Shown here piece after piece: positions 37,098 through 39,836 of a stretch of DNA of 39,836 nucleotides (positions are counted from its first letter, which is position 1; each line of letters begins with the position of its first letter). The translations under genes were made by a program, and so were the position numbers. Source of the stretch: Chloroflexota bacterium (lineage in GTDB: Bacteria; Chloroflexota; Anaerolineae; 4572-78; J111); NCBI GenBank assembly GCA_024277275.1, contig JAJRVO010000168.1, positions 1 to 39,836 of the forward strand, in the 5' to 3' direction. Under the pieces are notes generated by a model. That model did not search any database and was not told where the DNA came from. It saw only the letters and a program-made list of their open reading frames with translations.

Positions 37098-37221
37098 ACT
37101 AGTACAGCTTGGCGGAAGTCTTTCGGTAGTTACAAGCAGCGCGTTGCTTAGTTTATGGAGTGAAAAAGTGCACTTTTTCACTCCATAAACTACCGAAGGA
37201 TTTACGCCGCCGTGTACTAGT
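37098..37221. repeat. 124-bp MITE-like element with ACTAGTAC / GTACTAGT termini
   Basis: Termini actagtaca/tgtactagt, sub-terminal ttcggtagtt / aactaccgaa, and central 40-bp perfect palindrome. Confidence 0.85.
37151..37190. repeat. Perfect 40-bp palindrome, no spacer
   Basis: gtttatggagtgaaaaagtg|cactttttcactccataaac. Confidence 0.97.
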
Positions 37222-37257
37222 GGCCTTAAATTCTTGCATTTTGCTCTACAAAAACCA

Positions 37258-37286
37258 TTGACACGTAACAAAAAGTACGTTACAAT
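37258..37286 (+). promoter_or_regulatory. Strong sigma70-type promoter of the GntR/B12-domain gene
   Basis: TTGACA - 17 nt - TACAAT; GTAAC...GTTAC inverted repeat in the spacer/-10 region. Confidence 0.7.
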
Positions 37287-37293
37287 AAGGTGA

Positions 37294-37313
37294 ACTGGTA
37301 TATACTGGTATAC
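37294..37313 (+). promoter_or_regulatory. Candidate GntR-type operator
   Basis: Two tandem 10-mers ACTGGTATAT ACTGGTATAC containing palindromic GTATATAC, just downstream of the -10 box. Confidence 0.5.
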
Positions 37314-37335: not shown

Positions 37336-38307
37336 ATGCATTTGGATAAACAACATCCCAGACCTGTTTACCTTCAGCTAAAAGAGTTGTTGCAGAATCA
37401 AATTGAACAAGGCGTTTACCTTTCGCACCAGCAATTACCATCTGAGCGCGACCTTTGCCAACATCATAACTTAAGCCGAATGACGGCGCGTCGTGCCTTA
37501 CAAGAACTTATTGCCGAGGGATTTGCTTATACTAGAGCCGGAAAAGGAACCTTTGTTAGCCAAAATCCAAATCTTTGCCGCAAAATATTTACGGATAAAC
37601 CAGATCAAATAGCGGCTTCTGATTTAGATAGCGCTATGCTCAATACTCACTATCAACAAAAACTGATGACTCCGTTACTATCTTTTGACTGTGTTGGGGT
37701 AGAGCGGGCCATTGGCGAAGCGTTGGCTGTATACTCACTTGAAACTGTAGCCGGAAGATTATTTTCGGAAACTATTAAAAATCTTGAACAAAAATGGCAT
37801 AAGGGAGAAATTAGTCTTTTAGTTTATAACTACGCAATTACTACCTTATGGTCGCAGTTAATTGCTATGGTAAATGCTGCCACAATGCCAGAAACCGGCC
37901 CAAGAGTATTATTAGCTTGCGCGCCGGGAGATCAACATGAAATAGGGCTGCTTTTGTTAGCCCTAAACTTACGACGACGAGGTTTTTTGGTTATCTATTT
38001 AGGGCCTAATCTTGGCGCGGATGAGTTTTACCAGGCTATAGAGACGGCGCAACCTAAACTTATATGCCTCTCTGCGGCTACCGAACAATCTGCAAAAAAT
38101 TTAATTGGACTAGAGCGGCAATATCAGGAACAGTGGATTTCAGATACAACCTATAAAAGGACTCACCTTTGGCAAAAACCGCTGTTTACCTTTGGCGGCG
38201 TAGTATTTAACCAAAACCCGGCGCTTGTATCAAATATATCCGGGGTTTATCTGGGTAACACAATTAAAGATGCCGTTACAAAAATACAAGAGCTATTTAT
38301 TGTGTAA
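37336..38307 (+). CDS. GntR-type winged-helix regulator fused to a CarH-like cobalamin-binding domain
   Basis: PVYLQLKELLQNQIEQGVYLSHQQLPSERDLCQHHNLSRMTARRALQELIAEGFAYTRAGKGTFV (GntR wHTH); LEQKWHKGEIS and ACAPGDQHEIGLLLLALNLRRRGFLVIYLGPNL (B12-binding DxHxxG). Confidence 0.85.
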   Translation: MHLDKQHPRPVYLQLKELLQNQIEQGVYLSHQQLPSERDLCQHHNLSRMTARRALQELIAEGFAYTRAGKGTFVSQNPNLCRKIFTDKPDQIAASDLDSAMLNTHYQQKLMTPLLSFDCVGVERAIGEALAVYSLETVAGRLFSETIKNLEQKWHKGEISLLVYNYAITTLWSQLIAMVNAATMPETGPRVLLACAPGDQHEIGLLLLALNLRRRGFLVIYLGPNLGADEFYQAIETAQPKLICLSAATEQSAKNLIGLERQYQEQWISDTTYKRTHLWQKPLFTFGGVVFNQNPALVSNISGVYLGNTIKDAVTKIQELFIV

Positions 38308-38417: not shown

Positions 38418-39122
38418 ATGTTAGCAGATGGCGCAAATATTTCATTGTTCCCCTTAAATGTGGTTTTATTCCCTGGGATGATGTTGCCGCTACATATTTT
38501 TGAAGACCGATATAAATCAATGATTAATGCGTGTTTGGGCGGCGACCAAATATTTGGCGTGGTTTTGGCAAAAAATAAACTGGCTCAATCAGAAAACGTA
38601 GTCGATGTCTATACTGACGATCTCTACAACGTAGGGACAACGGCCCGCATTACGGCAGTGGAGCATTTGGATGATGGCCGTATGAATCTAATTACAATTG
38701 GTCAAGAACGGTTCACTATAAAAGGGGTTGCAGCCAGTGAAGATGATTTTCTTGTTGGACAAGTAAAGCCATTCCCTATGCAAGGCAGCGGCGACCCGGC
38801 AAGAATTGACAACATGGTTCAAAAGCTAAAGCCGTTGGTACAAGAATATATCAACTATTTGGCCGACGTGTCGGGCGAGGACCTTTCAAATGCAACGTTA
38901 CCCACAGATCCAGCGGCCCTGGCCTATTTGGCCGGCACAGCCGTACAGGGTCCTTTACCCGATAAACAGCAACTGCTCTCAGCCGAAACATTGAGCGCGT
39001 TAATATCCAAAACCGTGCGTGTGCTTGATAGAGAAAACCAAATTTTAGCTTATATGTTAAAAGCTTATCAAGCCCACCAACAAATAGAAAGACTACCTTT
39101 TGTAGACTACTCTCTAAATTAA
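38418..39122 (+). CDS. LON N-terminal (substrate-binding) domain protein
   Basis: ISLFPLNVVLFPGMMLPLHIFEDRYKSMINACLGGDQIFGVVL and GTTARITAVEHLDDGRMNLITIGQERF. Confidence 0.9.
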   Translation: MLADGANISLFPLNVVLFPGMMLPLHIFEDRYKSMINACLGGDQIFGVVLAKNKLAQSENVVDVYTDDLYNVGTTARITAVEHLDDGRMNLITIGQERFTIKGVAASEDDFLVGQVKPFPMQGSGDPARIDNMVQKLKPLVQEYINYLADVSGEDLSNATLPTDPAALAYLAGTAVQGPLPDKQQLLSAETLSALISKTVRVLDRENQILAYMLKAYQAHQQIERLPFVDYSLN

Positions 39123-39138: not shown

Positions 39139-39836
39139 ATGGCAACAACATGGGCCCCAGATGAAGCGCTGTTCAGATTAAGCATTGCTAATCTTGCGGC
39201 TACCGCGCCGGTATCCCCGGCCGAGGAGAGACGTTTGATTGCCGTGATGATGGAAGGCAAAGATGCCTCAACATACCTGGCACAATTTTCAAACCTAAAC
39301 CCTGCCGAGCGCAAAAAGCTTCAGGCGAAACGAGATGAAGGTATTGCATCTCGAAAAATGTTAATTCAAGCTAACGGTCGTCTGGTAATTAGTATTGCCA
39401 GCAAATATACAGGGCATGGTCTTAGCCTGGCAGAGCTTTCTCAAGAAGGTGTGTTAGGGCTAATTAGAGCTATCGACAAATTTGACACCAGTAAAGGCGT
39501 GCGCCTTAGCACCTATGCCAGCTACTGGATTAGACAAAGTGTTAGCCGGGCCGTGGCCGTACAAACTCGGGTAATCCGCCTGCCGGTTCACAAAGTAGAT
39601 CACCTGGGCAAAATTAGAAAGGTGATGGGACAGCTTACCCAAAAATTGGGACGCGCCCCGGAACTGGCAGAAATTGCAGCCCAAACCGGCGACAACCCGG
39701 AACAGATTCACGAGTTGCTTCAAGACGGGCAGGACACCCTGAGCCTTGAAGAACCTGTAGGTGATGACGGGGCAACCCTGGCCGACTTTGTAGAAAATGA
39801 TTTGGCCCAGGCTTTAGAAGACCAGGTCGATTCTAC
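39139..39836 (+). CDS. Sigma-70 family RNA polymerase sigma factor (3' truncated by window)
   Basis: Absent from ORF track. ATG at 39139 opens MATTWAPDEALFRLSIANLA...ANGRLVISIASKYTGHGLSLAELSQEGVLGLIRAIDKFDTSKGVRLSTYASYWIRQSVSRAVAVQTRVIRLPVH. Confidence 0.93.
   Translation, partial: MATTWAPDEALFRLSIANLAATAPVSPAEERRLIAVMMEGKDASTYLAQFSNLNPAERKKLQAKRDEGIASRKMLIQANGRLVISIASKYTGHGLSLAELSQEGVLGLIRAIDKFDTSKGVRLSTYASYWIRQSVSRAVAVQTRVIRLPVHKVDHLGKIRKVMGQLTQKLGRAPELAEIAAQTGDNPEQIHELLQDGQDTLSLEEPVGDDGATLADFVENDLAQALEDQVDS

Follow-up and report, generated by a model that had tools for sequence, protein, structure and literature searches.

A conserved Chloroflexota family of GntR regulators with a CarH-type cobalamin-binding domain

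The DNA analyzed here (39,836 bp, referred to as the window) makes up an entire contig of a 6.06-Mb MAG. It encodes a protein in which a GntR winged helix is joined to a cobalamin-binding domain of the CarH type. The analysis confirms this architecture, which is conserved and evolves under purifying selection. Judged from the aligned sequences, the residues that would read the adenosyl group are lost as a set across the family, while those that would hold the corrin are kept. Most of what is known about B12 regulation by proteins comes from CarH/LitR proteins of the MerR type, which use AdoCbl as a light switch. If the function proposed below is true, a GntR head on a CarH-type sensor would show that this domain is able to pair with a different family of DNA-binding domains and to be re-tuned for a different B12 signal. 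Also new are a candidate tandem operator 3' of a strong sigma-70 promoter, essentially unique to this gene, and the conserved order of the GntR-B12, LON-domain and sigma-factor genes (Table 1).

Table 1. Features of the GntR-B12 locus and its product, with positions in the window.
Feature	Position	Strand	Basis
Sigma-70 promoter TTGACA-17-TACAAT	37258..37286	+	11/12 consensus matches, best of scan
Candidate operator CTGGTATATACTGGTATAC: tandem pair of GGTATA sites, period 10 bp, just 3' of the -10	37295..37313	+	Conservation, uniqueness
GntR-B12 regulator gene	37336..38307	+	ORF from ATG to TAA, 323 aa; Pfam, PDB sequence matches, AlphaFold, Foldseek
Segments of the regulator: winged helix (residues 1-75), disordered linker (76-98), four-helix bundle (96-181), Rossmann cobalamin-binding fold (190-322)			
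GntR winged-helix DNA-binding domain, residues 1-76	37336..37563	+	Pfam, PDB matches; R38, R48, G69 as in NagR
Segment with W154, H155 and Y164-N165 (CarH W131, H132 and E141-H142)	37795..37830	+	CarH alignment
CAPGDQHEIG (C195-G204), DxHxxG motif with the lower-ligand-type His201	37918..37947	+	D199, H201, G204 invariant
Standalone LON substrate-binding-domain protein	38418..39122	+	Pfam PF02190, 127.6 bits; neighbor in all orthologues
Sigma-70 family sigma factor, group-2-like, SigB PRK07921-like	39139..39836	+	Ends at contig edge; 86% identity to L041:12502-13416

Domain architecture and spread of the family

The initial annotation of this ORF had proposed an N-terminal GntR winged helix and a CarH-like cobalamin-binding C-terminus, and both halves of that description hold. 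In the 323-residue product, the Pfam GntR model (PF00392) covers residues 12-74 with 58.3 bits (cut-off 27) and the Pfam B12-binding model residues 190-262 with 42.6 bits (cut-off 32.1). A phmmer search against the PDB matches residues 1-75 to NagR/YvoA (1e-14) and residues 110-231 to T. thermophilus CarH (1.5e-15), the best match for that part. The NCBIfam CarH model aligns to residues 104-256 with 76.5 bits, far under its cut-off of 400. The structural comparison with CarH that the annotation had suggested points the same way. An AlphaFold model built from a 7-row alignment has a mean pLDDT of 79, with low values in the linker (78-98) and the loop 270-279, and CarH structures rank first when it is compared with the PDB in Foldseek. 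Its C-terminal part is superposed on many chains that comprise only the CarH CBD at about 2.4-3.0 Å over some 205-220 columns, with a TM-score normalized by the CarH chain (the target) of 0.78-0.87. Purifying selection is evident from a dN/dS of 0.085 for the DNA-binding domain and about 0.045 for the cobalamin domain, both taken from the closest orthologue pair, as dS is at or near saturation in the other pairs.

Full-length matches are present in eight of 12 genomes of the same Chloroflexota family, spread over five genera (the window protein and seven orthologues), and those relatives that have names belong to Anaerolineae or 'Chloroflexi'. Both the GntR and the B12-binding Pfam domains are detected in all eight members; the Pfam scan finds no MerR domain in any of them, PF00392 taking its place. 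After the linker, only B12-binding domains are found, and the C-terminal domains that define FadR, HutC, MocR, YtrA, AraR and PlmA are absent from the eight proteins according to Pfam. These are the subfamilies named in GntR classifications, none of which has a B12 domain (PMC4494728, PMC5882156). A characterized GntR-B12 family, which the annotation had considered a possible refutation, was not found in the open-access literature searched; a description elsewhere is possible.

No further genome matches both domains among 396 genomes of the class (threshold 1e-30) and 400 of the phylum (1e-40), together around 780 genomes beyond the carriers, and the remaining matches start only from about residue 49-108. 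A MerR recognition-helix motif is present in 46 of the 47 distinct relatives examined, the 47th being incomplete at its N terminus. A wider search for the architecture, also suggested by the annotation, used two DNA-binding-domain peptides against one genome per species for 84,980 species; it recovers fusions only in the Chloroflexota orthologues and is blind to fusions bearing a different GntR sequence. Neither plasmids nor viral contigs yield a full-length match. In a tree of the cobalamin domain, the GntR group is a single clade (support 100) on a long stem, and its position among the MerR proteins has a support of 23. Many MerR-CarH-like proteins of Chloroflexota are around 440-550 aa long and carry an extra C-terminal region beyond the cobalamin domain (L019, L022-L028, L030-L033, L119-L138).

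The cobalamin pocket and the light signature

The C-terminal part aligns with CarH without gaps, placing W154 on W131, H155 on H132, Y164-N165 on E141-H142 and H201 (in GDQHEIG) on H177. The DxHxxG signature noted at the outset is thus present, and the corrin-holding residues W154, D199, H201, S246 and G287-288 are, like G204, invariant in the eight members. The D/ExHxxG...S...GG motif of base-off/His-on cobalamin-binding proteins is complete in each of them. Its first residue, position 199, is Asp in 8/8 members versus Glu in 45/47 CarH-like relatives, and its D, G and S vary less in the GntR-B12 family than in the MerR relatives. The annotation had stated that the Trp and the lower-ligand-type His are kept, which is correct for W154 and H201. 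It does not apply to H155, which corresponds to CarH His132 (the residue that becomes upper ligand once CarH is in its light state) and varies across the eight members (H in one, Q in three, Y in three, R in one).

In CarH, Glu141 forms a hydrogen bond to the adenosyl group and Trp131 stacks on it (PMC10442372), and a Pro from the neighboring monomer contacts it together with Glu141 (PMC10442372, PMC11796333). The published light signature of CarH-type photoreceptors comprises GxxW, EH, GxxH and GxxxP (PMC11796333), and Wx9EH is reported to be crucial for AdoCbl-specific binding, its loss marking the B12-independent CarA (PMC9304148). Three of these four signature motifs (GxxW, EH and GxxxP) are missing in 8/8 members, while both GxxW and EH are retained in all 47 CarH-like relatives compared. 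Position 151 is always Glu in the family versus always Gly in the relatives, which turns GxxW into ExxW. At position 164, the Glu of all 47 relatives is replaced by Y, H or Q, and position 165 is Asn in seven members and His in one, compared to His in 47/47 relatives. Pro at position 227 occurs in 0/8 members versus 32/47 relatives, where the placement of GxxxP at G223-x-x-x-227 is our own reading of the residue numbers in PMC11796333. The observation that the EH pair reads YN was accurate, and the suggestion that this change matters is strengthened.

The loss of His132 alone says little, since CtMerR, SasPcob and AbDPcob carry Arg, Gln or Tyr at this position and are yet photoactive (PMC11796333). 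Because the adenosyl and light signature is lost in all eight members, however, AdoCbl light sensing in the style of CarH is unlikely. By the signature of PMC11796333 and the Wx9EH criterion of PMC9304148, the GntR-B12 protein would not be classed as an AdoCbl photoreceptor. From the initial proposal of a B12/light-responsive regulator of unusual architecture, the architecture stands and the response to light is not upheld.

Promoter, candidate operator and gene order

Wherever sequence 5' of an orthologue is available, the TTGACA element is equally placed and the tandem site TGGTATAYAC-TGGTATAY (TGGTMTAYACTGGTATAY) follows the promoter; G007 was left out of this comparison, as its contig ends too early. 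Within the window, CTGGTATATACTGGTATAC is the sole match. At one mismatch or fewer, the site occurs before the GntR-B12 gene in seven carrier genomes and elsewhere only once, in G009 (G009:C193:14279; one mismatch), where no clear gene lies behind it and the surrounding stretch looks phage-like. Matches with two to three mismatches were rejected as further sites, being about as frequent as those of a reversed-pattern control. The first half-site, GTATATAC or GTCTATAC, fits the operator consensus of the HutC subfamily, GTMTAKAC (PMC4494728), with C instead of K in G002 and G008. Dimers of E. coli NanR bind cooperatively to GGTATA repeats (PMC8012715), and in NagR, Arg38 and Arg48 contact GG (PMC4333415); their equivalents here are R38 and R48. 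A conserved promoter-proximal operator, its likeness to HutC and NanR sites and the retained NagR arginines make autoregulation of the gene via this candidate operator likely. The operators of L013 (G009), L015 (G011) and L016 (G001) extend to a perfect palindrome, e.g., CTGGTATATACCAG, the others being direct repeats only.

Between 30000 and 39836, no Rfam family reaches its gathering threshold, and the gene is thus not preceded by a known riboswitch. An imperfect palindrome of around 116 bp with the ends ACTAGTACA...TGTACTAGT and a DNA fold z-score of -8 is located at 37102-37222 and precedes the -35 of the GntR-B12 promoter by about 36 bp. It has at least 40 copies in the genome at 99-100% identity (40 of 107 candidates scored) and resembles a MITE- or REP-like element whose amplification was recent.

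The order GntR-B12 gene, LON-domain gene and sigma-factor gene is found in every orthologue, with the sigma gene incomplete at the contig end in some genomes. The homologous sigma factor L041:12502-13416 carries sigma regions 2, 3 and 4. The gap between the LON and sigma genes is about 17 bp in the window and about 90-600 bp in several orthologues, in which the sigma gene may therefore have its own promoter. Three genomes of the family (G003, G005 and G010) have the LON and sigma genes without the GntR-B12 gene, an OmpR-type response regulator lying on the other side. Since one of them, G003, retains TTGACA and ACTGGTATAC at this locus, the sequence suggests that the GntR-B12 gene was lost from the non-carriers. 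A tree of the sigma factor, LON protein and response regulator, in which non-carriers are placed among carriers with a support of 45-76, agrees weakly with such a loss. Throughout this Chloroflexota family, the sigma-factor gene comes directly after the LON-domain gene in every case, including the genomes without a GntR-B12 gene. Gene position is the sole basis for the predicted link of the regulator with the sigma factor. Judged by gene order and sequence starts, and by Pfam for only a few neighbors, no carotenoid or photolyase genes were noticed beside the orthologues. The source genome does use cobalamin, as it encodes an ATP:cob(I)alamin adenosyltransferase and has cobalamin riboswitches at three sites.

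Proposed function and alternatives

In our preferred explanation, to which we give an even chance, the protein is a local regulator that represses its own operon, which includes a sigma factor, and its cobalamin domain responds to cobalamin without reading an adenosyl group. The HutC/NagR-type winged helix and the CarH-type cobalamin domain would together form a one-component transcription repressor. It would bind the tandem TGGTATA sites just 3' of its own promoter, most likely as cooperating dimers or a tetramer, and would repress its own gene, the LON-domain protein and the group-2-like sigma factor. Given that the cobalamin domain retains its corrin pocket and lower-ligand His but has lost the adenosyl-reading residues, it most likely senses the supply or state of cobalamin (methyl-, hydroxo- or reduced cobalamin) instead of acting as an AdoCbl light switch. 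Binding of the ligand would shift the oligomer state and the affinity for the operator, in one direction or the other. More tentatively, and with the balance tilting against it, the proteins could form a new GntR subfamily in which a CarH-type sensor was re-tuned from adenosylcobalamin to methyl-, hydroxo- or reduced cobalamin, setting the sigma-factor level according to B12 supply or redox. Control of the sigma factor, if real, would couple B12 state to a broad change of transcription in uncultured Chloroflexota.

The main rival, possible but rather unlikely in our judgment, is a B12-independent repressor resembling CarA of Myxococcus xanthus, in which the cobalamin domain would be a constitutive dimerization or protein-partner module and another signal would be sensed. 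CarA no longer has an intact Wx9EH and functions independently of B12, although its B12-binding motif is retained (PMC9304148, PMC8156234). The GntR-B12 family also breaks Wx9EH, in a different manner: CarA, with its MerR head, lost the Trp and kept EH, whereas the GntR-B12 proteins did the reverse. As CarA works without B12 despite its motif, conserved corrin residues are no proof of ligand control. Yet the invariance of DxHxxG, S246 and GG in 8/8 members, with D, G and S more uniform than in the MerR relatives, and the strong purifying selection on the cobalamin domain would be surprising in a protein that binds no corrin, even though CarA itself keeps the motif.

A green-light photoreceptor like CarH, in which AdoCbl would hold a DNA-binding oligomer together in the dark and light would break it, is improbable. 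The absence of GxxW, EH and GxxxP from all members, which removes the adenosyl contacts (Glu141 and the Pro of the neighboring monomer), and the lack of noticed carotenoid or photolyase genes near the orthologues outweigh the modeled fold, which is the same as that of the CarH CBD, and the retained Trp and lower-ligand His. A His at the His132 position in the window protein would also suit this alternative, as would the photoactivity of CtMerR and photocobilins without it (PMC11796333). We attach even less credence to a Rossmann domain that binds a different small ligand, or to a fusion decaying without current function. The gene is indeed missing in three family genomes that keep its neighbors, one with a promoter remnant, but low dN/dS, an invariant corrin motif and the fact that carriers have both promoter and operator intact argue against this reading.

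Returning to the non-adenosyl cobalamin regulator, parallels exist with several known systems. The MerR-type AdoCbl photoreceptors CarH/LitR (T. thermophilus CarH, 5C8D; C. thermophilum CtMerR, 8JBS) share the four-helix bundle and Rossmann cobalamin domain, the equivalents of Trp131 and His177, and a one-component layout with an N-terminal DNA-binding domain and a direct-repeat operator at the promoter. The GntR-B12 protein differs from them in its GntR head, in the loss of GxxW, EH and GxxxP, in DxH for ExH, and in its LON-domain and sigma-factor neighbors, without noticed carotenoid genes. Its winged helix with R38, R48 and G69 and an operator that fits GTMTAKAC resemble NagR/YvoA and the HutC subfamily, in which a UTRA domain stands where the cobalamin domain is found here. 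E. coli NanR likewise combines a GntR winged helix with a tandem GGTATA operator (predicted in the present case), but it has a FadR-type effector domain and needs for cooperativity a 32-residue N-terminal extension that is missing in the GntR-B12 protein. The eight proteins and their one conserved operator provide natural variants for testing what makes a cobalamin domain light-responsive.

Seven Actinomycetota loci (L086-L088, L090, L091, L097 and L110) were considered as further fusions and rejected, as the genes are separate. In these loci, a HutC-type GntR gene adjoins genes for an MtaC-like corrinoid protein and a UroD-like methyltransferase, product names that were judged from sequence without a domain scan.
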